Assembly: GCF_035083965.1 (NCBI RefSeq) | Contig: NC_089727.1 | Span: 8,995,501-9,059,500, forward strand | Origin: Branchiostoma lanceolatum | Lineage: Eukaryota; Chordata; Leptocardii; Amphioxiformes; Branchiostomatidae | Direction of reading: 5' to 3' | DNA: 64,000 bases | Shown here: piece after piece, positions 3,601 to 48,300 of the stretch | Numbering within the stretch: position 1 is the first letter of the stretch | How the letters are laid out: each line of letters begins with the position of its first letter | Notes under the pieces: model-generated | The model's input: the letters and a program-made list of their open reading frames with translations, nothing else | Told to the model about the DNA's origin: nothing | Databases searched by the model: none | Program-made: the position numbers and the translations under genes

Positions 3601-6560
3601 CCCAGTTTTTCCTTTTGGAAATTCTACTATATGCTAAATCCCCATGCATAGCCTTGAGGCCAAGAAAGGGTAAACTGGCAATGTAGCCAGGCCTGGTAGA
3701 CAGCCCAGCTTTTTCCTTGAATCCGTTGAGGAGCCCAAATGTAGATGGACAGGACAGTCTTTCACTCCTCTTAGGAAGTGCTGGTAAAAGTAATTTGTAC
3801 CACAGATGAACCTTCATTCAATATAAAAGTGACATCAGAATGACAAGTTTCAACTCATTTGATTAATTTCAGCATTTGTACATTTTGTATGTTATATTAT
3901 GAAAAGAGTCGGGTTCTTTTGTATGACATTGGTATGTCAAACATCTTTTTTCTCTCTTTTCAGTTTAAGTACAAGATGCCGGATATTCCTGAATCCTTTG
4001 ATGAAGTCAACTCCCTAAGGTACAGCGTGCCAAGCCCTTCATATGGGATAATGTCTAATCAAAAGGGCAGACACTAATGCATATTATTTATGATATTGTA
4101 TATCAAGCTTGTTCTCAATAGATTGCAAGTACTTGTATAAAGATATTAGCGTGCTCAATGACGTTTTCCAGAGATGATGGTACATGTATGTTAACAGAAT
4201 ATTGCTTCTCTAGTGTTGCTGATCTGAAGGAGCTCCATGACAACGAGACCAAGGTTGTTGACCTGTTCAGCAGCCTGCCCCAGTGTCAGCAGCTTTACCA
4301 GGACAGAGACAAGCTCAATGATGCCACAGAAGAGCTAGCAAGTATGGAAACATTTCTCTTGTCTCTTTCACTTGAAGCTGTTAATACTATGTATAGAGTT
4401 TGTCTTCTCTGTTATGACCAGTGGAAGAGTAGCTCTTCAGAGAGCAAAACTAGTTTTAAACTGCAAATTGCCAACACAAAAATTGGGCAAATTTTTGACT
4501 GATCAGCTTCAGTCTTTGTCAAGCTATGAGCAATCCACTGCTTCTGTGACATCACGTTATGCAGATAGAACATGTGACGCAGTGAGCAGTGGATCATAAG
4601 TTGCAGAAAGTCTATGGTACCCCCCGCCTTGACAAAGACTAGAGCTGATCAGTCGAAAATTTGGGTAAGTCCAATTTGTTTGTGTTGGCAATTTGCAGTT
4701 CAACTTTGATTCAGAATGCAAATATAGATGAACTTTTTTAAGTAAACTGGTTCTAGATCACTTTCACTGTTTCACCTGAAGATTCTGAGTGAACCAACCT
4801 AACTACAAGGCGAATGATACCACCGGGAGTCTGATCAGTATCTGTTTTGATCCATCAGGACAGAACCTGGATAAACAGCCGATGCTGGAGCTGAAGAAGA
4901 AGGAGTTGATAGAGAAGGTGGAGGAACAGAACGAACTGAGGAGGATGTTTGACAAGAGTTCACAGAGACAGAACGACCTCATGGATGTGAGTCACTGTGT
5001 CTTTTGGTTTTAAGTTGTAGATCAGTACAAACTGTGGATACAGGTAAGTAATGAAGTATTAAACAGAACAGCATAGAATAGGACAAGACTGGACAAGGCT
5101 TGGCTCTAATACAACCAATTTAAGGAAATTTATGGTAAATACCAACTGATATGGCAGTGGCATGCTTATAAAATAATTTGTACAATCATGTATGTGTGTG
5201 TTTGAGTTAGTGTGTGTGTCTGTTTGGGGGTGTTGTGTGTGTTAAACTGTGTGTTTGTTTGAATTTGTGAGTGTGTGTGTGTGTGTGTGCATGCTATAAA
5301 TGTGCATGCTTATGGGGAGTGACCCACGGTAAAAATAATATCATTGTTATTGGTCATATATGGTACATTTATTGTGTATTTAACATGTATTGTGTATTTT
5401 ACAGTGTATTGTGTATTGAACATGTATTGTGTATTTGTACAAATAGTGTTGGCCTACAAAATCTTCCTGTAAGCTCCAAACATAAATCACTCAGTTGCTG
5501 AATATTTCTACTAGACAGGTACAATCCTGTACATATTTGTAGGAACAAGAAATTGTACTGACTTTTTTATGAATTGTTCTTTTTGCAGCAATTTAAGCCA
5601 GCCATGATCCAGGCCAACCTGAAGGTAGCAGCACAGCAGGCAGAGGAGGAGTCAGATGTCATAGCAGAGGACTTCTTGGAGGGCAAGACAGAAATAGACG
5701 AATTTCTACAGAAATTCATGGAAAAAAGAGTGGTAGGTGGCTGAGGAAATGTTCTTTCTTAACTGTTTTGTAGGATGTTATTCCTATTCCTCTCTGTGTT
5801 TAGGCCATACAGATTTGGTTATATGACATCCTCTGTATAGCCCGAAACTGATGTGAACATGAGTAGAAAGAAAAGTTGGGCAAAAACATTTACCTTCATT
5901 ATGAAATAAAGTGGTCAGGAAGGTTGAACAAATGACTGAACACCAAAGTTGTGCATGGATGTCATCCATATGATCAAGTCAGAGTGGTCTTAATACATGT
6001 AAGTTGCCATGTTGTATGTGAAATAAATGATTGTGCTATTCTATTCCTTTTGTAAAGTTAGTGGCCACAAAAACTATACAGTCTTGTACATTATATGGGG
6101 TCGTTGTGAGCCAAGAAAATATGGACAGACATTTTCCAACGCCAATTTCTTCCCAAGACTGAGGTGAAAATGAGTACCTAGCTTTGGTTAGGGACGTCCT
6201 CTGGATGGGACATAAATCCGGAGGTCCTATTTTTTAAGAGAGCCACACTTTGAGACGTTACAGAACCCACCACACTTACATGTACATGTATTCATAAGAG
6301 TAGGGGTTCATCCCAATGTGAGTGGATCAAACCTTACAATCCAGTCTTACGCAGCTTGTACTTACTGCCTGTACAAAACCGGTATTTTATGCCTTGATGC
6401 AGTTTACCGGTGATACAAATGAATAAGATTTAAAAACAAAAATATGTGCTGAAATTGAATCTCTCTTCTGTTTCAGCTGTGCCATATCCGCCATGCAAAA
6501 GAAGAGAAGTATCAACAGCTGATGGCCAACAGACCGCTCAGATCAACAATGACAATGTAG
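667..6560 (+). CDS. VPS37A: VPS37A, ESCRT-I subunit
   Basis: Subunit of ESCRT-I, which sorts ubiquitinated membrane cargo into multivesicular bodies at endosomes. Ten coding exons: 667-776, 1439-1513, 2012-2126, 2508-2590, 3022-3229, 3964-4019, 4214-4341, 4859-4986, 5589-5732, 6477-6560. They join in frame to 376 residues with stop TAG at 6558-6560; human VPS37A is about 397. Exons 2-4 encode the UEV-like domain, with the motifs DVEYRV, INNVTISLNI, LPPEFPKDRP and DLGRVI, which align closely with human. Exon 5 is a Pro/Ser/Thr-rich linker, as in the family. Exons 7-10 encode the helical Mod(r) domain (DLKELHDNETKVVDLF to the C-terminus) that packs against TSG101 and VPS28. The start is the first ATG and gives MFNLFGRSKPQ, similar in style to the human N-terminus. 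Exon 6 is the least certain. The presence of the UEV domain separates VPS37A from VPS37B, C and D. Confidence 0.93.
3481..3721. mobile_element. MITE-like inverted repeat
   Basis: Arms of about 39 bp at 3481-3519 and 3683-3721 are inverted copies of each other (arm starts TTCAAGGAAAA, then GGGCTGTCTACCAGGCCTGG). It sits in the VPS37A intron between exons 5 and 6, has no open frame, and is best read as a non-autonomous DNA transposon remnant. Target duplication was not resolved. Confidence 0.65.
4459..4700. mobile_element. MITE with about 65-bp terminal inverted repeats
   Basis: Left end AACTGCAAATTGCCAACACA is mirrored at the right end (TGTGTTGGCAATTTGCAGTT). The inversion extends through CTGATCAGCT and AGTCTTTGTCAAG, so each arm is about 65 bp with few mismatches. 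It lies in the VPS37A intron after exon 7. The sequence before it (about 4400-4450) resembles 13278-13325, so it seems to abut an older repeat. Confidence 0.75.
5190..5290. repeat. GT-rich simple repeat
   Basis: A purine-pyrimidine alternating GT-rich stretch, with the clearest (GT)n run near 5271-5289. It is in the VPS37A intron between exons 8 and 9. The open frames across it are artefacts of low complexity. Confidence 0.8.
5800..5992. mobile_element. Family A MITE (GGCCA...GGATGACATCC ends)
   Basis: The left end TTAGGCCATACAG and the inverted right end TTAAGACCACTCTGAC match in inverted orientation, and the subterminal motif ATGACATCC is present on both sides. The core AGTGGTCAGGAAGGTTGAAC is shared with copies at 8.9, 32.9 and 62.5 kb. 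It is non-coding and lies in the last VPS37A intron. Confidence 0.7.
6145..6245 (+). repeat. SINE-like 3' fragment
   Basis: The sequence GAAAATGAGTACCTAGCTTTGGTTAGGGACGTCC with the following AAATCCGGAGGTCC matches the 3' half of the SINE-like copies at 24.3 and 56.4 kb. The tRNA-like head is missing, so this is a truncated copy. Confidence 0.55.
6300..6420. repeat. Uninterrupted copy of the repeat split at 31.65 and 33.03 kb
   Basis: The motifs GTGAGTGGATCAAACC, ACGCAGCTTGTACTTA, CTGTACAAAACCGG and GCAGTTTACCGGT occur in order here. The same series occurs at 31650-31700 and 33030-33080, where a transposon separates the halves. This copy shows the unbroken arrangement. Confidence 0.55.
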
Positions 6561-8479: not shown

Positions 8480-11400
8480 CTACATCCCGTTGTACGCTGG
8501 ACCTCCCCCTGCCTCGGGGGTGACCCAGTTGATGTTCTGACTGGGGTCCTTGATGTCACATGTCTTGCAGTGTACGCAGTTCTGAGCGTTGATCTGTAGT
8601 CTCATTGTCTTGCCATCTTCCATGGGAACATATTCATATACACCTGGTGGAAAAGAGAACAGGGAGTTATGTTACTGTGTACATTCATGTACTGTATATT
8701 ATGCCAAAGAGCTTTGCAACAGAACTGAGTCAGCTTACAGATGTGATACTTGTGGCAGAGACTGCCATTCTCGTATGGGGCTGTTTAGCCTTAGTCGATG
8801 CTGTAGGGCTGTTGTGAATTAGGATTTTACCATGATCAGAACTGACCGACGGAGGCCATATATAATTTTATGCCAAACTGATTTGATTATATGGATGACA
8901 TCCTCTGGGCACTCTAAAACTGATGCAAGCATGCAAAGAAAAAAATTGGACAAAAAAATTGTCTGACTTCATTGTGAAATCTAAGTGGTCAGGAAGGTTG
9001 AACAAATGACTGAACACACGTACAGAACATGGTATACCTGACCAAAACAATATATTCTTTATTTCTGTTCGAACCTCTTTTTCTTTGACTTTGGAAGACC
9101 TTACTCATTTAGTAGCCATTTTCTGATATGTTTTTTTCCCATTTATGGTTTATATCTGCTCATTTTGCAAAGACAAAGTACATCCTGTAGTCAAAATAAA
9201 GGCAAAGAAGATATGAAAGAACAAAAATAGATGTTCAATGTTCCTGACCACGTAATTACATTTCAGAATAGAGGGAACCTTTTCTTTGCATGCTTGCAGC
9301 AATTTCGGGTTGGCCAGAGGATGTCATCTATATAATCAAATCAGTATGGCCTACCAATAATCACCTGAAAAAATTGAGGGGCATTAGCAGAAGAAGAACC
9401 AGTACACTTACCTGCCGGACAGAACCTCTGCTCAGGCCCGTCGTAGATACCCAGGTTTTGATTGACAGGAACTTCGTCGTTCATGAGAGTCAAGTGTGCC
9501 GGCTGGTCCCCCTCGTGGTTGGTGCCGCTCAGGGCGACCGACGACAGCAGGTCGAAACTGATCTTGTTGTCGGGTTTGGGGTACTCGATGGGCGTGCACT
9601 CTGATGCTGGCTTTAACCTCTTGTAGTCTGCACCTAGAGGATTAAGTAGTGTAGGGCTTAGTATGAAACAGGTTAACTTCATGCTATACAATGCAATCAT
9701 AATCTTGTAATTGGCAGTGTGATCATATGTAAGTCTTGAAATATTCAGTGCTTTGTATTTTTCGCAGTCCCTCTCCGACATTAAATATATCTGCAATCAG
9801 TAGGAATAAAAATTACAAAGAAAATTTGTGTCCTCACCCCCGTGAGAGAATGTCCATGGTTCCTTCCCCCTGAAGAGGTAGTAGAAGACTCCAGTGTAGA
9901 GGAGTGTACCATATAGTCCCAGGGGGGAGTGGAATGATGGTCTGACGTTCCGAACACTTTTGATCTCCTTCCACACCCAGCTGTCCTTCATTCTCTGCTC
10001 ATAGTCATCCACAAACACTCCTACAGCGGAATATAAAATAAAATAAAAATTATACACCAAATGTTAGATACAGATGAAATTTTTGCTACCATGAAGACTG
10101 CAAAAGGCAATATACAAATGAAAGGGAAATTATTTGTAACATTTAATGTCACTCTGCAATGGATTTTGTTACGATGCAAATATTTGACCAACAGTCAACA
10201 GTGGCAAGGTGCTGTTGTGGTTAGGTTCTGGGTTCGAATCACTAGCAGGCCCCAATGTTGTGCATTTTCTGCACACAGACCTTTAATTTGATCAGAATCT
10301 TTTGCAAATATTTTCTTTCCTCTAAAAAATTCGGCCCCACTAAAACTACTGATCAAAAAATTTTGTTTCATAATTAAACAATGTCCCAGTAACTCAATGT
10401 CCCAGTAACTCAACTGGGAGCAGCCTCGCATGTGCAGTTGAGCTGCTGGTTCCAATTAGTTGCTAACTACATGTAGGAGGTCCTGGTTCAAATCCTGGCA
10501 AGGGCATCTCAGTTGGGGCTGCACCCGTCTTTCAGAAGGAACGTAAAATGAGAGTCCCGTGTTCAAGGAGGTGCCTCAAGTACATTATAGGGAAGGGCTC
10601 CCTGTAAAAATATACCCTGCTACTGAAACAGCAAGAAGCCACTAGGCATGTGCACTAAAAGGTGAACAACAACAACAACAATGACACACTCACCCTGAGT
10701 TTCAGACTGAAGATTCTCATCTGTAAGTTTATCAAAGATGGCCTCGGCACAGATCATGCCTGACTTCATGGCGTTGTGCGTTCCCTTGATTTTAGGCACG
10801 TTCATGAACCCTGGGCTGCAGCCAATCAGACAACCCCCGGGGAAAGCCAGTTGCGGAATAGACTGTGGAGTAAAATAACATCCAGAATAAAAATGAAGTT
10901 CAACTTTTAAGCAGGCCTTAAAGCATACGTAAAGGTTTTATTTTTTCATAAAAGCATGCTTTACATACTTTACAAATGCTTTACATGTCCTTAAGATCAA
11001 ACTTTGTATACTGAATATTCCAGCCAGATTGATACTGAACCTTGACCCTAAATCATTAAATAGTTTTTGTGCCTAAAATACTAGTATGGAAATGAGTGAG
11101 AAAACACAGATACACAGACAAGCCCAAAACAATACATCACTGAAGTTCACACAATCATATAGTATTGACATACTAGTAGTATTCTTCAAGTAATACTATG
11201 TAGTCATTATATTTGTGCATTTCATGGTACAGAGAATTGAAAAAATATGTAACTGTATGATCTTCATATCACACATGAGTACTATACAACGGTGAAGTCT
11301 TGTGAATGCATTCATTTTCCGGTGGTTTTATTTTGTGGTAGAAGGGAAAGAGAGGTTTTTGTGGCGTTTTAAATTTGCAGTAGAAAAAATGCTGTAGTAC

Positions 11401-14400: not shown

Positions 14401-17400
14401 AACAAACTACAAGAATGTACCAAATAAGAAGTAGGTAAAGGCCTTATTGAGGCCCTGGGGGCAGTGGGTAGGTTATCCACTGTGTCTAGGGCACAGCATT
14501 GGAAGGCCCTCTCCTTCCACAACCTTCCCAAGTTAGATAACCTTTTTACACATGGGTGGAGTGAAGAAAGCCTTTCCTAAGGACACAACGTCTAGCCAGG
14601 AATGCCACTTGGCCATTCTAGGCCGCTAACGAAGAATTTCAAACAAATCGTTTTAAAAACGTATCAAAGCTGTTTCTATGCAGGCTAATGTCAAATCTTA
14701 AAACTTCATCGTACTTAGGCCACAGCAAGTAAATTTTATGGATGACATCCTCCGCAGACTCCAAAATTAATGTGATAGGGCAAAAAAAAAACAAGGCGGG
14801 TAAAAAAAAACAAGATTCCTATATTTTCAAATTTTGAGATCATGAATCTTGTTAAACAAGACTTGCGGCAACAAAATATGAAATCACGACCAACAGGTCT
14901 TTTGTTCCTGTATTCAATCAATGACGTTTCATATATAATATAAGACCACCTTGATTCAACAGTAAACATGTCATACCATCATGGGCATTCATATGCAATG
15001 GAACACCTGGGCAGCAACTATATTCAACTGGGTATTCATATGGAACACTGTGTCAACACATGCCATCAAATTCGAGCAATTGAGCCTCAACGTTGCTGGA
15101 TCATATCAAGCAATTGCACAACACAGAGCCTTTGTCGGACATATCATTGGAGGGCAATGAAATGTCGATTTTGTTAGTAGTTCACTTCATTCAAGAACAG
15201 CACATCGGATTTCACGTTGTTGATAATAATAGCACAGAAATTACACACTATATTACAAGTTTGGCATGAGGGCTGCACAGTTTCTTCTTGTAAGTTGGTG
15301 ACGACGAGCAATCTCGTTACAGCTTGCATACACAATAATTGTACAATGCACTTGTACGGAGTTTTCACAATTCTTACATTTTCAAATGCCTTTTTATGGC
15401 ATCTAGAACGTTTTTACGATAGAACTGACTGTAGTTTGCGACAAATTGTATTATTTTCGATATGTTGACCATTGCCGAAGGGTAAAAAAATCTTGTTTTT
15501 TTTTTCAAAATCAGGCGAAAATTAATGAGCGCGCTGATGTCATCCATAAAATTTACTTGCTGTGGCCTTATGACAAATTGCTTTCTGCAACATTATTTAA
15601 ATCATCCCTCTCCAGGGTTTAAAATGGTATGGTCCAACAATGACCTGATCCTGACCTCTGTAACAGGGCATCCTGGGTAGACCTCCACCTCCAGCTCCTC
15701 TGCCTGCTCACCCAGCCACCGTACAAAGTTGCCCAGCCTGACCACGTAGTTCCCAGAGTTGTGCATGGGAAGCCCTGGAACATCAGAATACTGTAAATCT
15801 GGAAACTTTTGTGGTGGTTTTATTTTCTCCTCTTTTACAAATTCATGACACGGCGAGTATGTATTTCCAGTGTACGACTGTACCATAGAATTGTTTCAAC
15901 CACCAATTTAGGACACCACGAAAACCGCCTTTTCTCTCCTACCGTGAAATAAAACCAGCACAAAAGTAAATTAATTTACAGTACATGAACTGAGAATTGC
16001 CCAGGCAAGAATCTACTGTTACTGAGAGGTGGTAACAAAATGCAACTGGTTATCACATATTGAATTGATTTGCTGGTCAATTGAAAGAGATTATCATCAA
16101 TCAATCTTTTGTTATAGGAGGATTGTCAATCATCTATAAGTTTCATCATATGAAAACTAAAGGTTGTAGAAATGTGCATTATTGCCATAACATGGCCTTG
16201 CTTTTCATAGATTTACAAAAATCCTGATTCTATCATTTCTATGTTACCTAGAGCTGTGTACCTAAACAAATTTTAGGTACAGGTACAGGTACACGGGTTA
16301 AGGTACAGGTCCGGACCTGAACCTGTACCTAAACTACTTGTTCGGAAAATGCTAGATTTTCAATAAGGACAAAAGCATGTTTGAACTGGTAAAAACATAA
16401 TATTTGATTGTGCTAGGTATCATTTTCATGAAAACACAGATGAAAATTTGACTCCAGCCATGCAAATGTGTTTTCTGTGCTTTAGAGTGGCTTTAGAGCC
16501 CTGCCACGGTAATTTCATAGTAATTTTATCTGTCAAAGTGGCCATCCCCTGAGTCAGGTCCAGTACCGATACAGCAGGGTCAGGTTTTTTGGACCTGTAC
16601 CTAATTGATTGTACCTGGTACTGTATCGGTACAGTGTACCGGTACACAGCTCTAATGTTACCCCAATCTAAACAATAACTTAATAGGAATAACTGTGCAA
16701 TATAGATCCTCAATATTGTAAAAATGGAACAGAACTGTACTTTAACTAAATAAGAGTTTTTCATATGTAACTATCTACATAATAGCTAAAGGCTTGGCAG
16801 GGCAGGACATCAGAGATTCACATAGTATTACACACCTGGTAAAATGGGAACAGGAATGGCACGCTTTTCAGTCAGAAACATGAACTTGTCCTCTGTAACG
16901 GGCGTATGGAGCGGTGCCTGCAGTAAAGGTGGGCAGAAGCGGGACAGGCAAGCCCTATCAGAACCAAATGCTGCGACAGGTCTTTTCTACTTACCTTTGA
17001 TGTCAAACGCTGTGATGAGATCCAAAGGTGTCAAAGAGTTAGTGAAAGCCCAAGGGGAAGGATGTGTAGGGCTGTTTTTCAGGGAACATTTCTAACAGGC
17101 TTCAAAGTCTTCTAATAAATACCAGAGAGTTAAAATCTGGAGATTTGGAAGATTGATCCATGTTACACTATTTCTGAGAAATATTTGATTCCCGAAATAA
17201 TAAATGACAACACATGATTGCCAAACGTTTAAAAAAGAACGGTTGTCAGATTATTTGAAGGGCAGTGATCAGAGGAGTAAACCAGAGCTAGACTAGGGTG
17301 GATGGTAGGCTAGATGATACAACCATTTAATTCCTTGGACCAATAGATCAATCCTGACTGTCCATCAAAATTAGCAGTTCAACCAATGAGAGATTGGCAA

Positions 17401-20400
17401 CTAGGGGTTTGTCCAATGAGAGAATGGCAATTAGCAGTTCAAAAGTAGCTGGATGTCCATCAAATAGTTGCATTTTGATGGAGGTGGGCGTGGCTATAGG
17501 ATTGGTCTATATATATACACATGTAACTTCATCCCTAAATACATAAAATCCCCTTAGGCTTTCTTGAGAAGGGAATGAAAGCAGCAGTGGTAATGAGGCA
17601 GCAGTGCAGGATTAGGTATGGAAGCAAGCTAGCTTTCCCAAGCCAAGGCCTTCCATACCTACCTGGTAGGATGGGGAGGGGAATCTTGTACTTTTCAGTG
17701 AGTAGATTGCATCTGTCTTCTGTCACTGGAGTATGCAATGGTGCCTGTTATGTTGGAACAATTTTCAGAAAAGGTTTTCAAATCAACATCACCATGATGT
17801 CAAAGTTGTTATTTTTTGTCTCAAACTTTTAGCACCATCCTCAAGATTGAAGGCCTTAGATTATCATATGCTGTAAAGTTTATACATTTAGTGCAAATAA
17901 TCATTATAGGTAGAGTAATATCAGTTAATGTATAACTGACGGTGAAAGACGATAAGGAATAAAATACAGAACAACATTGATGTCATAAACTTATAGCAAT
18001 ATATTGTAATAAAAACAAGCAAGCTATCAGAAATGCCAATGAGTGCTAATATTGGAAGAAACAAGAATTTCATAACTTTTACATTTGCAGCAGGCACTTT
18101 ACAGAGAGGAGTTGTGGTTGCATAATATCATACAGTGTGCTATGAAATTATTTGATTTCATCTGTATCTGTATCTGTATCTATATAGCCGGTACAACCGC
18201 CATTAGGCGTAACACACACACTCATGTATCACCAACAAGGAACAAGTATGTTCTATTTTGATCAATCTATCAATACATTCATCAAATTTTCATTCTTTAC
18301 CTTCTGCATGCAGCCTTTTTCTAGTGTTAGTTAAAATATTACCACTAATATTGAGTAATAATAAAAATGTGCAAAACAAACCATTGACACAGTCAAAACT
18401 GCCCAAGAAGACCATTCAGGGGACCAATAAAATCCGGTCTATGTGAACAGGTGGTCACTATAGACAGGATTCCTTAAAATGTTTGTGTCCATGGAAACAT
18501 TATCTTAGGGACCACAAAATATTTTGTTACATTAGACAGGTAATCCCCATAAATGTAGAGGTGGTTACTTGTACAGGTTTGACTGTAATCATTAGTTGTT
18601 TAATAAGAATAGGTGATTGAAGAGTCTTACTCCTCTGTCCTTCCAGTCTGGTATGAGCTCGTCTAGTGCGTGTGGCTCCAGGCAGGCTCCTGACAATGTG
18701 TGCAGACCTGGGATGGAAGAAACGAACCTCAGTGTAGTTGGCTGTGAATTTTGCAACCATCCACATTGAATAAGCAACAGTACAACACGATTTCAGTTCC
18801 TCAAAGAGCTTCAAACGTGAATGACTAGGTATAGAGGTAAAGCAGTCATCCTCAATTGCTTTATCAAGTAATGGTGGTAATGCAGTGTGGTTTCATTGTG
18901 GCTCGCATTTTTAGCCAAGCACACCGGGTCACCCCTACTCTACTCAATTTGCCAGTTCTTTTACAAGGAGAGGTTTGATGCTTGAGGCTAGGCTTACACC
19001 CAAAGCTCCCTCATACGCAGGGCCGGCAACTTTACGCCACCATCTGAAATGGCACATGCGATAGCGTACATGTCAAAGCTGGGGCCAACCCTAGGATTGA
19101 ACCCTCGCCCATGGATCCATGAAATTTGATCCATATGGCGAAACTATATAATTACACTAACGCTTGCAACATGGGGACATAAAGACATTTAAGCAGCCGT
19201 AAGAACATTGAGCCCGACCATACATCTGCTTGGAGATTGTACTCACCTACTTCCGTAGCCTTTTCCAGTACCAACACCCTGAGTTCCTTGTCCTGCTGCT
19301 GGGCCAACTGTTTCAGTCTGATGGCGGCCGACAGTCCCGCTGGCCCCGCCCCCACAATACACACATCCACCTCATCCGATACTCTCTCCATATCAACATC
19401 TACAAACAGTTTGGAAAAAAAACAGATGTTTGTGAGACTCCCATTCCCTTAATCAATAGACAAACTGATGTCGTCATACCCATAGGGGGTCTATGTAATC
19501 GGGCACATCCATTAAGGATAGTACACGGCCGAACCCTGACCGGTGTCACGGTGCCTGGCATCTTGAGGGCATTCACGTTCCGCAGGCGGCACCTCAAATT
19601 TTCTGCATATCACTAGACAATGTCAATGGCAATTCACCTTTATCACTTGCATTAAATACACAGAAAAAATGGCTTATTTTGTACTTATAATTCTATGGTG
19701 GACGGCTGACCAGCTGTCCATGGACTATACCACAGTGACACTACTTGCAGGAAGTAATAAAGAAAACACATAACAAACAGTAAGAAGAAACTGACCACTC
19801 CATCTGCTGTCCTTGTCTCTCGGCAAAACTGACCAGTGCGTGGTGATCTTGGGAGTGGCGGCATTGTTGGTACAGAAGAGACGCACCCCCGCTCTGGCAA
19901 ACCGGCCAGCTGGAAAAGAATCAACATAGAAGTCAGGCATTTTAAAACTAGAAATAAGTAAATAGAAATGTGGTGTGTACTAGCAAATATGGACAGGTTT
20001 GGGTTCCAGATTAATTATGTCAGGGAAAAATTTAAGTAGGTGATACAATTAGTAGGATTGAACATGATAAGTTATCTATTTAGTACTATTCATGTCAGAA
20101 AGTTATATGTTTCTATTGGAATTTTGCAACTTGGAGGTACTAAAGCGCCAGCTAGTAATCCATGGTGGTACTGCAGCCTTGGAACTGTCTTGTAACCTAT
20201 GGTAAGGCCACACCAACTTAATCTTATGGATGACATCCGCGCGCGCATTGATTTTCGCCTGTTGTCAAAAAAACAAAACAAAAAATCACCTCCTCCAAGG
20301 CTACACGGAACTCCGGAACTTGCCGACTTAGATTGCCGCAAAAGGCTAGCATTGTGCCGGCTTATCGGAAAACTGGGGGTGTATGTGAATTGGTATGCCA

Positions 20401-22519
20401 TCGATGTTGGCTAGGGGGATTTTGCGTTTGCACAGTTGTACGAGAGGATCGCAGTGGCCAGTGAGTATCACCCAAACAATTTGTCACGACCTATCCAGAG
20501 TGGCTCTCACACGTTTCTTTTGCAACAATGAGAGACATGGGAGAGGAATTGAGGGATTGGCAGAGGGATTTGTGAGCGTAAACCATGGAATGCTTAATAT
20601 GTAGTTCAATGCCATGTATGTTGAAACTGCCCTTATGGGTGTATATGAGTATTCTCATCACAGTCATATATCATCCACAGTCCTTGGAGCCAAATACTTT
20701 CTAATAGTATACTTCTTTGGTCGTTCTAGTCAATATATTAAAAATCAATCACTTGCGCTGAGTCTGCTATGATGAACAAGACAACCTACATGTACCTCCT
20801 ACAAATAAACTGTGTTCTGTGGTTCAGTTCGCAATACCAGCTTTGTACTAGTAGTCCTGTGGTTTAGTAGCATTTTTTTTTGCTGGATTTTTCTTTTTTT
20901 CGCCCGCGCGCATTAGTTTTGGGGTCTCCAGAGGATGTCATCCATAAAATCAAGTTGGTGTGGCCTAACCTTTGGAACTTGTAATGCTGAAACCGTAAGT
21001 GATCTTCTGCCCAAGTTATATGGTAAAACCTTGAGTACACGTGTACAAGAGTACAGTTTACATTTTATGTTTACTATCTATCTATGCTACCCCCTTGGTA
21101 CAGTACAAGTATTCCCACAGTTGTGAATAAAGTACATTTGTGTACTACAATTTTAAAACAGAGTTAAGCCTTAAGGGAAAATATGGAAAAATTGTACAAT
21201 CTGAACTAGCTGTATTTTACAGTGTTCTGAGAAACTTTGTGGAACTTTGTCAACATTAAAAAAATGCAAATGCTAATGACTCAAAGCCACACCTCTGACA
21301 CACCCAAAAAATGGACCAATCATTACTTGGGTTCAAAGTCTATATATAACAAACGAATACAAAACTGGTATAACCTGGTTAAAGCCGGTAGGCATACCAT
21401 GGGGGTCTATGTCACTTATTGAATTCTATTGTCTTTGTTACGGTGCTATCAAATATACTTAAATAAATGAATCTTTGGTAGAGTTTATATATGTACTGTA
21501 ATGTAAGAAAGGGTATCCATTTTATGATGTGCCTACTGTAGTATTACTTTTGAATTTGAATCATCAACTTTATTAGAACTTTAAATCATGTAAACTGTAT
21601 CCTCATGTTATACATATTTTGCCTGACCCTTACCTCTTCCCTCATGACCTGAATGAAAAGTGTCCTGCGGGCCGATTTGAGCTTATCATGAATAAACAAA
21701 GGTTTCAACAAACTAATTTTGATATATTCTTTCTTCAATGAATCTTGAACAAAACAACTCTAGAAACAGTTTAATACTGATCTAACTTGGTGATCGGATA
21801 TCCAACATCACGTTTCGTAACGTCATAACAAATATAAGTATAGTCATGTGGGTTGGTTGTGCGTAAATCGTTAAATCTGATCATATGACGGTAAGTATTG
21901 GCAGCTACGTGCAAAAAATACACTCTGAAAATAAATGTGTTTTAAACAAACCACAATATTGGAATTCATTTATCGGGACATCACAAAATATCATTATGAG
22001 GAAATCATTACATAATTTTCCTCTCGAATTTCGAAGGATGTCAGTTTAAATCTTTTAAGTGTATACACAATCTTATGGAATATCATACATATATTAAAAG
22101 ATTTCATATGATCTCGACATGATATTACGTAGCTGGAAGATTCGTCAGATTCATACGAGGAGAAAACAGCCTCATTACCCTACACATTGGGTACCTGCCT
22201 GTGGCACTGGCTGCAAATACACCTGATATTATTATTATATTATAACTTCGAACGAGAGATAATTTTTGGTAACGTTACGTAGCAGACGAAATTTCTGATT
22301 TTGTAACAAAAACTTACTCAGTTACTGGTAAAGTCCTAAAGTTTTAGCGCATTTTCTGCCACAAAACTACAACTAATTCGCTTGAATCTTGCACCAGGCG
22401 TTCTATGAATCTTTAGAATGCGATATATATTATCCTTATGGACTGAGGTTACTGCTATGGACAGTAGAGGACAGAAAGACAAACTCACCTTTCAGCGCAC
22501 TACCAAGTAACGCCGCCAT
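8480..22519 (-). CDS. ETFDH: ETFDH, ETF:ubiquinone oxidoreductase
   Basis: Mitochondrial inner-membrane flavo-iron-sulfur enzyme that passes electrons from ETF to ubiquinone. Exons in transcript order: 22519-22489, 19909-19796, 19399-19247, 18707-18631, 17744-17663 (5A) or 16917-16836 (5B), 15774-15656, 14174-14097, 13629-13483, 12755-12690, 12290-12216, 11663-11520, 10862-10694, 10020-9838, 9633-9412, 8643-8480. With one exon 5 this gives 607 residues (human 617). Residues 1-40 are Arg-rich and lack acidic residues, as in a mitochondrial presequence. GAGPAGL (65-71) is the FAD-binding loop. [16 protein letters not shown] and [16 protein letters not shown] are strongly conserved. The [4Fe-4S] ligands are C551 (FCPAG), C576, C579 and C582 (CVHCKTC). 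The protein ends GGGPAYNGM like human. Two versions of exon 5 are the notable oddity. Confidence 0.96.
8869..9353. mobile_element. Family A MITE copy
   Basis: The left end CTGATTTGATTATATGGATG and the right end (inverse ATACTGATTTGATTATATAG) form terminal inverted repeats. GCATGC boxes are found on both sides, and the family core AGTGGTCAGGAAGGTTGAAC is present. It is in the last ETFDH intron and ends 59 bp from exon 14 (9412-9633). Non-coding. Confidence 0.7.
10195..10290 (+). repeat. tRNA-derived SINE-like fragment
   Basis: It contains GTTGTGGTTAGGTTCTGGGTTCGAATCACTAGC, a B-box-like GGTTCGAATC, followed by the tail CAGGCCCCAATGTTGTGC that is shared with the copy at 56.3 kb. Truncated and internally deleted; in an ETFDH intron. 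Confidence 0.5.
10441..10640 (+). repeat. SINE-like repeat with B-box
   Basis: GGTTCAAATCC at about 10485 fits a Pol III B box, followed by GGCATCTCAGTTGGGGCTGC and CACCCGTCTTTCAGAAGG. I recall such tails from repeats of lancelet and other invertebrate genomes, but did not check this. It lies just beside ETFDH exon 12 (10694-10862). Confidence 0.45.
11301..11512. mobile_element. Family B MITE copy (GGTGGTTTTATTTT / ACTGTAAAT ends)
   Basis: One end reads CCGGTGGTTTTATTTTGTGG and the other has the inverse AAAAATAAAACCACCG, followed by AAGATTTACAGTA. It matches at least six other copies in the window and lies in the ETFDH intron between exons 11 and 12, ending 8 bp from the exon 11 donor side (exon boundary at 11520). 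Confidence 0.7.
11864..11895. repeat. (TTTG)n microsatellite
   Basis: About seven uninterrupted TTTG units, within a repeat that begins GGCCTCCATGAATGGAGC and resembles 52355-52400. Confidence 0.85.
12345..12560. mobile_element. Diverged family B MITE copy
   Basis: It retains CAGTTTTATTACGTGTTAGAAGG at one side and GTCATGAATTTACAGTGGAGAGG at the other, the order seen in intact family B copies. It is eroded compared with the copies at 11.3, 33.3 and 63.1 kb. Confidence 0.45.
13083..13345 (+). repeat. tRNA-derived SINE-like repeat
   Basis: It has AGTTTGATTCCGGCTGTGCCG (B-box-like GTTTGATTCC), then ACGGGACGTTAAGCCGTGGTCC, ending with GCCAGTGGAAAAATAGCTCT, which is shared with 4415-4450. In the ETFDH intron between exons 8 and 9. 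Confidence 0.5.
13765..13990 (-). repeat. Repeat family J copy
   Basis: It shares GCAGAGGTTTGATGCTTTAGGC and a region ending in a GGACTCGCACCCTTGCCC-type motif with 18890-19150, and the GCAGAGGTTTGA part with 45885-46085. On the minus strand this motif resembles a tRNA T-loop, so a tRNA-derived SINE is likely. Confidence 0.4.
14223..14405. mobile_element. Family B MITE copy
   Basis: It contains TTGGCGGTTTCAATTTAACG, AAAACCACCGCGAAAAGCC, and an end CTGCAATTACAGTATTAAC. About 50 bp from ETFDH exon 7 (14097-14174). Confidence 0.5.
14460..14650. repeat. Repeat family K copy
   Basis: The motifs GTTATCCACTGTGTCTAGGGCACAGCATTGGAAGGC and GAGTGAAGAAAGCCTTTCCTAAGGACACAACG recur at 53025-53215 in the VWA3-like gene. 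The nature of the family is unknown, probably SINE-derived. Confidence 0.55.
14715..15570. mobile_element. Family A MITE, 856 bp
   Basis: Left end TTAGGCCACAGCAAGTAAAT with TTTTATGGATGACATCC is matched by the inverted right end TAAGGCCACAGCAAGTAAAT with TTTTATGGATGACATC. The arms run for about 40 bp with very few mismatches, so this is one of the best preserved copies. It lies in an ETFDH intron and ends 86 bp from exon 6. No transposase-like open frame. Confidence 0.85.
15789..15983. mobile_element. Family B MITE beside the ETFDH exon 6 acceptor
   Basis: It starts TACTGTAAATCTGG with GTGGTGGTTTTATTTT and ends AATTAATTTACAGTA, the family ends in inverted orientation. On the minus strand it ends 14 bp before exon 6 (first base 15774), so the branch point and part of the pyrimidine tract must come from the element. 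Confidence 0.75.
16249..16655. mobile_element. MITE with AGAGCTGTGTACC ends
   Basis: Left end TAGAGCTGTGTACC and the inverse of the right end TTAGAGCTGTGTACCGGTAC match. The interior is rich in GGTACAGGTAC and GTACCTGTACC units, including GGTACAGGTCCGGACCTG. It lies in the intron between exon 5B and exon 6 of ETFDH. Confidence 0.7.
16836..16917 (-). CDS. ETFDH: ETFDH alternative exon 5B
   Basis: An 82-nt exon with acceptor TTTACTGCAG and donor GTGTGTAA on the minus strand. It encodes [10 protein letters not shown] followed by [17 protein letters not shown] plus one base. Phase (0 in, 1 out) and length equal those of exon 5A, and it joins in frame to exon 4 (ends at 18631) and to exon 6 (starts at 15774). 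It keeps Phe at the position where human has EDRFGIL, but has Arg-Ala where human and 5A have Tyr-Arg or Tyr-Lys. Confidence 0.9.
17663..17744 (-). CDS. ETFDH: ETFDH alternative exon 5A
   Basis: An 82-nt exon with acceptor AACATAACAG and donor GTAGGTAT on the minus strand. It encodes [10 protein letters not shown] followed by [17 protein letters not shown] plus one base, with the same phase as 5B, which lies 745 bp downstream. Using both exons would add 164 nt and shift the frame, so only one can be used per mRNA. Both copies are intact and similar to the human segment. Confidence 0.9.
18388..18587. mobile_element. Family C MITE (TACAGTCAAACCTGTACAAG ends)
   Basis: Left CAGTCAAAACTGCCCAAGAA and inverted right TACAGTCAAACCTGTACAAG. 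The same element is nearly complete at 61624-61820 and partial at 28177-28335. It ends 44 bp from ETFDH exon 4. I recall similar ends from repeats of other animals (unchecked). Confidence 0.75.
18890..19150 (-). repeat. Repeat family J copy
   Basis: It shares TTTAGCCAAGCACACCGGGTCA and GGAGAGGTTTGATGC with 45950-46020. It ends with GGATTGAACCCTCGCCC, whose complement is a T-loop-like GGTTCAATCC. Probably a tRNA-derived SINE in ETFDH intron 3. Confidence 0.5.
20203..20968. mobile_element. Family A MITE, 766 bp
   Basis: Left TAAGGCCACACCAACTTAAT with CTTATGGATGACATCC and inverted right TTAGGCCACACCAACTTGAT with TTTATGGATGACATCC form the arms. CGCGCGCAT boxes follow on both sides. It lies in ETFDH intron 1. 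The interior carries no recognised gene. Confidence 0.85.
20969..22488. other. ETFDH intron 1, remaining part
   Basis: AT-rich sequence between the family A element and exon 1. No exon, RNA gene or clear repeat was recognised. Confidence 0.4.
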
Positions 22520-22629: not shown

Positions 22630-25062
22630 ATGAGCATGGCGGGCCTCGGTAGAAATTTCATACTTTGTGCCAGAAAATCACTATTATTTCATCGTTCTGT
22701 ACTTAAGTTGACCAGAATACAGACACCACTAGCTACAGAAGTGGTGGTCACACAGGTTAGAGGTACCAAACGATGGGTACGCCCGTATTTACAGACTCTT
22801 GTGAACCGAATCAACCGGGAGAATGAGTTGCTTGGCCCCCTCCCTCCCCAACCAAGGTAGGTCATCAGCAGTGAAATCATTTGCGTGAGCATTTATATAA
22901 TAGGAATGGCTGAAGCTATTGACAGGATACAATATATTCACCTTGAATATTCACCTTGAAGTTCAGCCAGTAGGTACCCATTAAGAGTAATGAGGCTGTG
23001 CCTAGTTGGTGCTAGTAGTGCGCATGATAGTTTCTTTTGTTCGCTTCTTTTTTCTTCCTTCCTTCCTTCCTTTGGAAGACAGGAATATATTCCAAAAATT
23101 TTGTTATTGATAAGATGATCCTGTCAGTTGTGCAGATTTGATCACTATTGACAGGATGATCCTGTCAATAGTGCAATTTAATCTGCTATTGACAGGCTCT
23201 TTTCAGTTGTTTGCAATCAATTATCAAAAGCCAACATATGCCACCAATCTGGGATATAACCCTGCCGAGAGTGCAAGAATTTGTCATTGACAGGATGATC
23301 CTGATTCCTGCCAGTATGCACTTCCTTTGGGAATTTTAAGTATACACTTGTAAATTAGTAACGTTTACATGTTTGTGAAGCAAATGTAATATGTTTTGAT
23401 TCCCATGAAGAAGCATTGACTCAAAATCATAACAAATATGGTGATTGGTTGAAGTTGAAGAGTGACTAATTATTTGTGCCTTTCTAGATCCGCAAAGATC
23501 AACTGGAACTATGACAGTGAACTGTTCGCCTTCGGACCTCGACTGGGAGAGAAGCTGAACCTAAACACACTTCGGGCTGCTTTTACTGACAGGTCATATG
23601 TAGAACAGGTGAGATGAGGGGAGCCTTTGATAACCTATGAACATTCAATGATTCAGGGATTTTTCTAAATAGGGAAAGAGGGGTGCAGTGCCCTCATACT
23701 CAAGTCTAACCATGGGCCCCTCTGACAAGCGTAAAATACAGATTGACCACGGATGCTACTAGGTCACATGTGGCCACAGCCTTCTGTCTGAGCCAATCAC
23801 TGTGGACATATGACTTTCTGCACGTGTGATGTCAGCAATGAGTTTAATATTGTCAGAAGTGAAGGTTGGTGCGACCTGATGAAGATTGCCTCCTTTACTC
23901 CTCTCACAAAGTAGTCCAGTTCAGTATCCAGAATATTAATGCACTCCAACGTCGTAATAGCATTTTCAGTTTGCTTAAAAGTTTGTAAGACTAACATTTG
24001 TTGGTAACTGCAGGAAGAAGAGCGTAGACGAGACCTGGGTCTGCCCCAGGAAGATGTAAAGCTGGACATGCAGGACAACACTCAACTGGCAGAGCAGGGC
24101 TGGGAGGTCACGACTAACTACATCCACAGGTTCCTAAGGGCAGAGTTCCCTCTACTGCCTGATGAGGGAGTCAAGTAAGTAGGAACAATTGTTGCAGTTG
24201 CTTTCTTTTGATCTGTGTTCGGTTTCTTCAAATTCATCGTTTTGCATGTGACATTAGTGGCCGTGGTGGTCGGGTTGTTGATTCAGAATCTAGAGATCGG
24301 GGGTTCGATTCCTTAGCTTCCCCTTGTTGTGCGCTTGAGAAAGGCACAAATTTCCTCACTCTGGTGAAAATGAGTACCTATCAATTCAGTTGGGGACAGC
24401 CTCTCGGCATGCACATTGTTGGTCTATTCACTAGTTAAGTGCCTTCTTTTCCATTGCTTGTGTAGAATTCAAGTGTAGGCTTGTATTACAATCTACTCTT
24501 TTATTTCAGAGCCATTCATGACTACATAACCCAGGAGAACATGTTGGTGTGGATAGCCAAACATCTGGGTATGAAGGACCTCATCCGTTGTGCAACCTTT
24601 CCCGTTCCCCCTTCCGTAACCAAACAAGTATTCCTTGCCATCATCGGCGCTGTGAACCAAGACCAGGGCACGCAGCGAGCGGAGATGTTCGTCCACGATT
24701 TCGTGGTGGCACAGCTCGTTGGGAAGGACGTCAATGCCATGTGGGACGTTGCAAATCCTATGGGCATGTTGGCAGAGATTCTACAGAAGGAAGGAAGGGG
24801 GGAGCCAGAGCCTCGGATCATTAACCAATCAGGGGTTAACACGGTCACGCCCGTGTTCTGCGTAGGAGTGTACAGCGACAAGGAACTGTTAGGAGAGGCG
24901 TCGGGAGACACCATGCCGCTGGCTGTAGAGGAGGCAGCACGGGTAGCTTTAGCTAACATGTTTAAGACCCAGGAGGGCAGGAAGCCACTGGCCCTAGACA
25001 CAAGACTCAAAACTATGGCGGAAATTGCAGGAAAGACCGACTATCTTGAAAACAAGTCATAA
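22630..25062 (+). CDS. MRPL44: MRPL44, mitochondrial ribosomal protein L44
   Basis: Large-subunit mitoribosome protein built from an RNase III-like fold and a double-stranded RNA-binding domain. Four exons: 22630-22856, 23488-23608, 24014-24174, 24510-25062, in frame, 353 residues (human 332). A second ATG at 22636 would start two residues later; the choice is open. Residues 1-60 are basic and lack acidic residues near the N-terminus, as in a mitochondrial presequence. The RNase III-like part includes NTLRAAFTDRSYVEQ and NTQLAEQGWEVTTNYI. At the place where active RNase III has E-x-LGD, this protein has AEQGW, so the catalytic acids are absent, in keeping with a structural role. The C-terminal part VTPVFCVGVYSDKELLGEAS with AVEEAARVALANMF is a dsRNA-binding fold. 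Product identity is firm. Confidence 0.95.
23100..23310. repeat. Palindromic TGACAGGATGATCCTGTCA cluster
   Basis: In MRPL44 intron 1. A 31-nt near-perfect palindrome is centred at 23158 (23143-23173), with related half copies at 23108-23126, 23188-23196 and 23286-23303. It would form a strong hairpin in RNA or a cruciform in DNA. Confidence 0.7.
24251..24430 (+). repeat. tRNA-derived SINE-like copy
   Basis: Head GGCCGTGGTGGTCGGGTTGTTG (A-box-like) and GGGGTTCGATTCC (B box), then a tail GAAAATGAGTACCTATCAATTCAGTTGGGGACAG shared with 6.2 and 56.4 kb. In MRPL44 intron 3, ending about 80 bp before exon 4. Confidence 0.65.
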
Positions 25063-45300: not shown

Positions 45301-48300
45301 TCAAGACATAGCCGTCAAACCTTATGCTAAGTGACTTTGGGTCAACTTGATATTAGTTAAGTGGTTTGTTGATAAGTGAAACAGGTATTCCTCTTTAGGA
45401 CTGTTGCAGGAGTACTTACCTGGTGAACACCTAGTGAGGATCACCTAGGTGACCTGGCACACCTGTTATCTATTCATAGTGCTGTTGAAACACATTATCT
45501 TATGGTCCTGTCCAATTTGTAAGATAAGTGTTACACCTGTTTCACTTCATAGCTGTCCAAGATTGTGGTTGCTATGCATTGTAAATTATTTGCCCTGGAA
45601 GTGGTTGTTATAATGTTGTATATCAAATAAAGCAAAATCATTTTGTATAGTAACTGTTGATAAATCTGATTAAATCTCTGAAGAGTGAAATAAATCTTGG
45701 TTTGTGTGACATTTAACACCCTTTGTACTTTGACCCTTATATTAGGTTTTATCACCCTTATTTGTGAATGTAAACATGTCGTGTATGTCTAATCAATCAT
45801 TAAGGTCCACAATAGTCTGAAAACAGCACAGATTCAGGTCCTAACAGAATCCATACAGCAGTTATCTAAAGGTAAAGCAGGTGACTTCAAACTGAGGACG
45901 AAGCATGATGCTTTTTCGTTCACTAGTTGCTACAGCTCACATATTTTAGCCAAGCACACTAGGTCAACCCTAATTTTCTCAATAAGGGTGTTGGGTTCTT
46001 TTACATGCAGAGGTTTGACGCCATAAGCTCCCTCAGACGAGGGGTTGCTGGCTTTATGTTCCCATCAAAAAGGATGATGTGACAGTTTTCCAGTCATGTC
46101 TTGAAAACAGTCCAAAATTGTTGACTGAAACTAATGGTATGCTACCATGCTACGAAGGTGACAATCAGCTATGCCTTCTGTTGTTAAAGCAAATACACAT
46201 ACACACCAACTCAAGGATTTTAGACATGTGCTTTTGTAATGATAGACGACTATGAGACCTTTCCTTTCATTTCATTGGTAAATTGTTTTTCTATGTGTTG
46301 GTGACTTCCTTGGTGCCTTGGTACATAACGTATGTTCCAGACAGTCTACTCTTGCTGAATACCTGAGACATTTTGTATTATCCATATCACATTTTAAAAT
46401 TGATTTTTCAAAACTGTTTAAAGTTTTACAATATTGTAAGTACTTCTGAGTACTACTTTTAGCTACTGTAGCCATTCTTAATTTTCCTGTACTTTCATAA
46501 CAGTAACTAAAGATAGGGTTGTTAACAGGTGGTTGTTTTGAGAGCCCGTTTTTCACAATGAAACTTTGTAGTTGTATATAGGGCTGTCTCCAGGACCCGT
46601 CCCTCCGTCCGGGGACAGACATTTTCTTGTTGGAACTGACAAAAATGTCACTAAAAATGACAGATTTTTCCCTAACAATACGTGGGACAGAAAAAATTAC
46701 AGCTAGAACAGACTGTAAATTTCTTTCTTGTGCTGTAAATTTTATAAGGATGTCTAGCTAGTGTAACATTATGATGCCAGACATGTACTTTTATTAATGT
46801 AACCAAATATAGGACTGTTAACAGGTGGTTGTTTTGAGAACCTTTCACAATGGCACTTTGTACATGTAGTTGTAAACAGGGCTGTCTCCAGGAAATTTTC
46901 TTGTTGGAACAGACGAAAATCAACAGCATGGGCTCCCAAACAATTGCGTGGGACGGAAAATAATTCCAAGCTGGAATTCCAGACTGTAACTCTCTTTCTT
47001 GTATGCTAAGTTTTATAGGGATGTCTAGCTAGTCTAACAAGGATTCCTTCCTCAGTAACAACAACATCTAAAGTAGCAACATCATCATTCTGCACATGTA
47101 GTCACTCAATGAAAAATTGTGGTGATCCGCCTTATGCACCATGGTGACGGCAGTGCCTGTCTGCTGACCCACAAAACCCGCCATTGTATTCAGTTGTTAA
47201 GTTCTTAAAGAAAATGCTGGTACAAAGGATTAGCCCTTTTACAGACTGTCTTTTGTGGTTCAAGATTGAAGTTTTCAATGATACTCAAAAACACTCTGAG
47301 AAGTATCATTTATAATATATAATGCACTGATTGGGGTTGACATGATTGTGATTGTTTACATGCACATTATGTCCATCGTTTCACCCTGCAGTTGAAATAG
47401 AATTACACCAAAGAAGCCTCATGCTATTTGTTACATTCAATTTCAGAATGTTCTGTTCTTTTGTTTGTAAACTTTTTCCGGTCATAGTTCTTATGAACTT
47501 ATAACGTTGGGTAACATAAATTCAGGATTTTTCCGATAATGGTTGACTGAAATCAATCTAGCAGAACAATAAACCATCCTTTTTTTCTATAATTCTGTCA
47601 GTATCATGAACTATCTTTGCACTAATCATATATATGGTAGATTTTGTCTCTAGTCGTGCTGACACCATGATATTTCAACTTGAAACTACCGTCCGCTGCA
47701 CGCACAATAACGGTGCTGTCGGACAGGGGGGCACATTAATTCGGGAGAGAAGATTCGTCTTCAATATCTTACCGCTAATCACATTTTATACAGCAGCTAT
47801 TCGTTCCATCCTTGGCTTGAGGAGAGTGCTATGGATATAGACGTGTCCAAGTAAAAAAAATACACGAAAAAACGGCCGTACCGCATACATCAGGCCAGTT
47901 CGGGAACAACCCGTGTGTTGAGTCGGTAGAACTTCACTCAAAGTCGGCCCATCGTCATCATCGGGCAACGTGTAACGTTACATTATTCATGGAAAGTTAG
48001 CTGGATGCCGTAGCAATGGTAATACTACTATGTCCATGTGTTCCTTGTTGTGTTAGGAGCAAACTTTGAGGAAAATATCTTCCTCAGTCCACTATCACAC
48101 GCAGCATTTAGACAAAAAAGTGTTCCTCACAAACCTTTGTCGTCTGCTTGACAACAGGATTCTGGTTAACAATATGGCGGCGGGAAAATACACGTGCCGT
48201 AGGTTGTAGCAACAGAGAGGAGTTTTGATGATTGATCACACTTAGAATCCAGTTGTAGGTTAGCAAAAGAGATTGTAATAAGTTGTCTTATAAATAATTG

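Follow-up and report, generated by a model that had tools for sequence, protein, structure and literature searches.

A tandem pair of homologous exons, probably used as mutually exclusive alternatives, in the ETFDH gene of the lancelet Branchiostoma lanceolatum

Electrons from the oxidation of fatty acids and amino acids reach the quinone pool through the mitochondrial enzyme ETFDH (ETF-ubiquinone oxidoreductase, also ETF-QO), defects of which cause multiple acyl-CoA dehydrogenase deficiency (MADD) in humans. In a 64,000-nucleotide stretch of the Branchiostoma lanceolatum genome (contig NC_089727.1, positions 8,995,501 to 9,059,500; hereafter the window, in whose own numbering all coordinates are given), the gene for this enzyme holds two versions of its fifth coding exon, here called 5A and 5B, which raises the question of whether a lancelet makes two forms of ETFDH by choosing between them. 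An original prediction, made from the sequence alone, had proposed such a choice in a segment assigned to membrane contact. The explanation considered likely here is that the pair arose by an old tandem duplication of one exon and that its two members serve as mutually exclusive alternatives.

The gene was rebuilt exon by exon, with acceptors, donors and phase each checked. Its coding region runs on the reverse strand from the start codon at 22519 to the stop at 8480 and comprises 15 coding exon positions, of which position 5 exists in two versions. Exon 5A (17744-17663) and exon 5B (16917-16836) are each 82 nt long, follow an AG, precede a GT and lead from phase 0 to phase 1; they are separated by an intron of 745 nt (17662-16918) and flanked by constant exon 4 upstream (18707-18631, ending ...WKDRG, donor GTAAGA) and constant exon 6 downstream (15774-15656, reading LPMHNSGNY... 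after a split Gly codon), all on the reverse strand. The intact exon pair, its spacing and phases, and the junctions predicted at 18631, 17744/16917, 17663/16836 and 15774 were thus confirmed by the gene model, as was the claim that either exon gives a full-length enzyme. The protein has 607 residues with 5A or with 5B alike, while inclusion of both shifts the frame and brings a stop after 168 residues, and omission of both brings a stop after 173. The two peptides are open without in-frame stop and identical at 20 of 27 residues, so that the "about eight" differing positions first proposed were corrected to seven. Adjacency, length, frame, homology and GT-AG borders, the sequence features by which mutually exclusive exon pairs are recognised in the available part of PMC5740500, were all found in the pair. 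Judged from the reading frame, double inclusion or double skipping is expected to be unproductive through frame incongruity alone.

The splice sites of the two exons differ. Pyrimidine content at -20 to -4 was 0.47 for the 5A acceptor (17745..17764, reverse strand), less than for any other of the 14 acceptors scored (those of exons 2-14, with 5A and 5B counted separately, and without exon 15), and 0.76 for the 5B acceptor (16918..16937, reverse strand), whose nearest upstream AG lies 37 nt off. The donors, CAG/GTAGGT for 5A and CAG/GTGTGT for 5B, fit 8/9 and 7/9 consensus bases, respectively.

In other respects the encoded protein is an ordinary animal ETFDH. The protein with 5A (form A) matched porcine ETF-QO (2gmh_A) across residues 27-607 with 1066.7 bits, and the protein with 5B (form B) was 73% identical to a 617-residue ape protein (P0056) over 96% of its length. 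The likeness of the two exons is beyond chance, as tblastn with the 5A peptide found 5B at E = 2.9e-11 and its next-best place in the window at E = 0.12; no third copy of exon 5 was found in the window by this search. When stretches of 76-88 nt bounded by AG and by GT or GC were scanned between 15000 and 19500, high scores were obtained for 5A and 5B only, and among the 14 peptides of exons 2-15 (exon 1, of about 10 residues, being too short), that of exon 5 alone had a second place in the window at E<1e-3.

At the nucleotide level, 5A and 5B differ at 26 of 82 bases, divided 6/5/15 over codon positions 1/2/3. The Nei-Gojobori method gave dS = 2.39, a rough value near saturation, and dN = 0.22. 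When 26 substitutions were placed at random, a mean of 15.5 residues changed, and none of 20,000 runs changed seven or fewer, the number seen among the 27 residues of the pair. The flanks of the two exons are unrelated, with short matches only, the shared intron aside. The ratio of dS to dN, the few residue changes and the unrelated flanks together argue for an old duplication, both copies of which have been held under strong joint purifying selection. Had one copy drifted freely, a dN of about 1.2 would be expected, this being its share of dS, compared with the 0.22 seen.

Residue usage was then compared with 120 homologues, listed of 7,998 matched, and with a wider set of 332 proteins (these 120 together with 120 each of 184 and 614 matches to searches aimed at a 5A-type segment), 277 of which have a complete exon 5 segment. 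Position 137 is Phe in 120/120 listed homologues and in 245 of the 277 complete segments, and Cys, the residue of 5A, was found in none of either set. At position 145, Arg is present in 111 of the 120 and Lys, again the residue of 5A, in none; Cys137 and Lys145 thus set form A apart from the ordinary enzyme. At position 138, the Asn of 5A occurs once and the Met of 5B not at all among the 120, two of which carry the Ala145 of 5B.

One of these two, P0001, is 95% identical to the lancelet enzyme over its whole length, has 13 member sequences, is named 'PREDICTED ... mitochondrial-like isoform' and is taken as another lancelet. Its segment, APIHTPVTEDLFYFLTEKRALRVPILP, is 5B-like. It differs from form B at 31 residues, with 5 of 27 in the exon 5 segment and 26 among the 580 residues outside it (p = 0.009 by Fisher's test, in a single post-hoc comparison with one relative), and is most simply read from its sequence as a 5B orthologue changed at 5/27 positions. 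A third copy of exon 5 that would match this third type of sequence was also considered and rejected, as none was found when the window was searched. As to whether both exons occur in other lancelets, a 5B-like version is present in P0001; none of the 277 complete segments is 5A-like, although clustering at 90%, in which the isoforms of one species would be merged, would hide such a segment.

It could be supposed from these comparisons that 5B alone sees appreciable use, 5A being a duplicate that is seldom used or in decay and has no separate function. The three residues of 5A that are nearly never seen in homologues, including a Cys at an otherwise invariant Phe, would suit this explanation, as would its acceptor tract, the weakest of those scored, and the 5B-like segment of the sole close relative found. 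However, free drift at a dS of about 2.4 would predict a dN near or above 1 rather than 0.22, and the frame, length, AG and GT of 5A are intact, with a donor fitting eight of nine consensus bases. A decaying 5A is therefore considered unlikely, although it is the strongest of the competing explanations.

If the two exons are instead alternatives, each mature ETFDH mRNA would carry either 5A or 5B, and messages with both or neither would be removed as early-stop mRNA. Because of the weak pyrimidine tract of 5A, we infer that 5B would be the default exon and 5A the regulated one. Several further devices of exclusion were considered. Docking or selector RNA structures were rejected, as each of three intron pairs had a weaker long-range duplex energy, a coarse measure, than the mean of 30 shuffles; no inverted repeat of at least 20 nt was found inside the intron between 5A and 5B. 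U2/U12 incompatibility was likewise rejected, since the donors of exons 4, 5A and 5B are all U2-like GT sites. In the available part of PMC7969005, OGDH exons 4a and 4b are described as excluding each other because their branch points are so distant that they lie no more than about 50 nt from the donor upstream. The AG-free stretch before 5B, in contrast, is just 37 nt, so the 5B branch point is probably near 5B, and with an intron of 745 nt as well, exclusion by steric limits or by an OGDH-like distant branch point appears unlikely. Within the same intron, a stretch of 15 nt at 16995-17009 (reverse strand) was noted by eye between consensus-like acceptor and donor sites, cag/CGTTTGACATCAAAG/gtaagt, and is possibly a decoy or micro-exon, or a product of chance.

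The expected fate of messages with both exons or neither could suggest a different purpose for the pair, namely that of a poison exon, in which double inclusion or skipping yields unstable mRNA that sets the amount of enzyme and the difference between the proteins is secondary. The early stops, after 168 residues with both exons and 173 with neither, are in keeping with such a role. A poison exon, however, need not keep its peptide, yet the changes between 5A and 5B fall mostly at third positions and leave 20 of 27 residues the same, which makes this explanation improbable.

What would be exchanged by a choice between 5A and 5B was addressed by structure prediction. In an AlphaFold2 model of P0001, built from 37 sequences (mean pLDDT 79.3, with blocks across residues 121-150 at 94, 91 and 87), strands were predicted at 134-140 and 145-147, and exon 5 is therefore modelled as spanning one beta-hairpin. 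The best match of the model in the PDB was 2gmh, with a TM-score of 0.89 when scaled by query length and an identity of 74%. Positions 114-131 of the pig chain in 2gmh align with this hairpin, and pig position 114 corresponds to residue 147 of the ape protein, that is, to Phe147 in human numbering. The exon 5 stretch accordingly holds human Phe147 and equals pig mature Phe114-Leu131 by alignment, in agreement with the original prediction. In the structure work of 2006 on the pig enzyme, this hairpin is reported to contact the membrane. No statement on a membrane role of the ETFDH hairpin was found in the open-licence literature searched. A docking study, in the part available, describes the hydrophobic quinone-binding domain as anchored to the inner membrane (PMC10896730).

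Membrane affinity was estimated with Wimley-White interface values, initially for residues 136-140, a window picked after the differences had been seen, together with 136-148 and the entire segment, and then for all windows of five and seven residues. In the five-residue windows starting at 134-137, 5A was less membrane-loving than all 120 listed homologues, but at 144-148 just four exceeded it. The 5B peptide showed the opposite trend, being exceeded by 16 of the 120 at 136-140, by five at 137-141 and by 83 at 144-148. On this simple additive scale, the swap would shift the sticky face between the strands of the hairpin and so alter tilt or depth rather than total grip. The strand-wise contrast fits the idea of a membrane-docking switch. 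Under the explanation by mutually exclusive use, the hairpin exchanged would be that around residues 134-148, believed to lie in the membrane beside the entrance for quinone. In form B the first strand (FMFL) would be strongly membrane-loving; in form A the first strand (CNLL) would be weakly so and the second (YKIPL) more so. The exchange would tune docking tilt or depth, or quinone exchange, and not the chemistry of FAD or the iron-sulphur cluster.

A number of points weigh against mutually exclusive use of 5A and 5B with an effect on the membrane. Splicing of the exons into mRNA one at a time is predicted from their sequence, and the membrane contact of the hairpin is taken from earlier work on the pig enzyme. 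The absence of 5A-like segments from the wider set also counts here, and Cys137, Lys145 and Asn138 could mean that constraint upon 5A has loosened. As the Cys codon TGC is one base from the Phe codon TTC, a base error at residue 137 is conceivable. Finally, the Wimley-White sums over residues 136-148 are close for both forms (2.65 and 2.28), unlike the Kyte-Doolittle values over the same residues (-4.5 and 3.7).

As far as searched, the exon pair is new in ETFDH, while systems of this type are familiar from other genes. No report of mutually exclusive exons in ETFDH or ETF-QO was found in the open-licence literature searched, by title, abstract start or, for PMC8659336, the text available, in line with the original remark that none was known, nor was such a case among the matches listed there for amphioxus, Branchiostoma and tandem exon duplication. 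ETFDH was also absent from the available text of surveys of human exon pairs, PMC5740500 included. That survey, in the part available, describes mutually exclusive homologous exons in a mitochondrial protein, SLC25A3. Both SLC25A3 and OGDH, as far as their sources extend, resemble the lancelet case in that one of two homologous neighbouring exons is chosen and one part of a mitochondrial protein is altered, but they differ from it in gene and function. In the available part of PMC9882654, the last exon of KRAS, 4A or 4B, is swapped to give a different membrane-targeting tail, 4A being suggested to derive from NRAS. There too a mutually exclusive choice alters how a protein meets the membrane; the KRAS segment, however, is a terminal tail, whereas that of lancelet ETFDH is an internal folded hairpin.

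A close parallel in quinone metabolism is COQ2, in which, according to the available part of PMC7434440, exons 6a and 6e form a mutually exclusive pair of equal length; in nematodes, molluscs and annelids, this pair determines whether ubiquinone or rhodoquinone is made. In both genes, a quinone-linked mitochondrial enzyme would be remodelled through such exons; COQ2, in contrast, changes its substrate and the quinone made, in rhodoquinone animals only, whereas ETFDH uses quinone, and no sign of rhodoquinone was seen here in the ETFDH sequence. It could nevertheless be proposed that the ETFDH pair is a rhodoquinone-tied quinone switch of the same kind, particularly as rhodoquinone-dependent metabolism of Caenorhabditis elegans needs ETFDH (PMC8659336, in the part available) and residue 448 of the lancelet enzyme is Phe, the 'helminth' quinone-pocket residue by our mapping. 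In the available part of PMC8659336, this Phe is treated as specific to rhodoquinone-using animals. Among the 120 listed homologues, however, 96 have Phe, 20 Cys, three Ala and one Tyr; Phe448, as the common state, is thus no evidence on rhodoquinone, and a link through this residue was rejected. Rhodoquinone is, moreover, described in nematodes, flatworms, molluscs and annelids only (PMC7434440, as far as available), and a rhodoquinone switch is regarded as very improbable. The 'mutually exclusive exons' named in the available part of PMC8659336 belong to coq-2 and not to ETFDH, and PMC12403961, which matched the terms rhodoquinone and Branchiostoma, draws on Branchiostoma, in the part available, only to compare synteny and composition. 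Residue 448 itself lies in exon 13 (10020-9838, reverse strand); its Phe carriers among the listed homologues include corals, arthropods and echinoderms, and the 19 named of the 20 Cys carriers are vertebrates. A change that took place among vertebrates, and not a trait linked to rhodoquinone, may underlie the contrast at this position.

Lancelet genomes are typically highly polymorphic, which could suggest an assembly artefact in which two alleles or gene copies were set side by side, but with 56/82 bases identical and unrelated flanks the exons are far beyond allelic difference and the remaining exon peptides searched each occur once, so that this explanation is hardly credible.

Other features were observed in the window. 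Two ETFDH introns hold elements, at 14717-15568 and 20196-20975, whose terminal inverted repeats measure 33 nt (perfect) and 43 nt (88%), respectively, and which have the motif TTATGGATGACATC in common; judged by sequence, they resemble members of a single family of non-autonomous DNA transposons, and related pieces occur near 5957-5986, 8867-8958 and 9278-9352. Adjoining ETFDH on the opposite strand, an open frame at 24466-25059 (forward strand) contains an exon of the gene for the mitochondrial ribosomal protein mL44, with Pfam matches to RM44_endonuclase (9.7e-14) and DSRM_MRPL44 (8.8e-08). A weak match to Mod(r) at 4122-4499 (forward strand) scored 23.3 bits, below the Pfam cut-off of 30.1 bits, and imperfect tandem copies with a unit of roughly 260-300 bp are present at 46485-46767 and 46781-47038.

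At its furthest, mutually exclusive use of 5A and 5B would give the lancelet two ETFDH enzymes that differ only in the membrane or quinone hairpin and are switched according to the supply of oxygen or the fuel state. Form A, which has a thiol where Phe is otherwise invariant, would then serve another quinone pool, run in reverse or be subject to redox control, much as the COQ2 isoforms serve quinone synthesis in worms; this extension is speculative and, as a whole, doubtful. Membrane docking of the hairpin and quinone exchange are hard to study through mutation alone, and two naturally occurring hairpins, of which one lacks a Phe kept in every listed homologue, would be a ready-made experiment on the residues that govern both. 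If the explanation by mutually exclusive exons is true, a splice-level control point would be added to beta-oxidation in a chordate.

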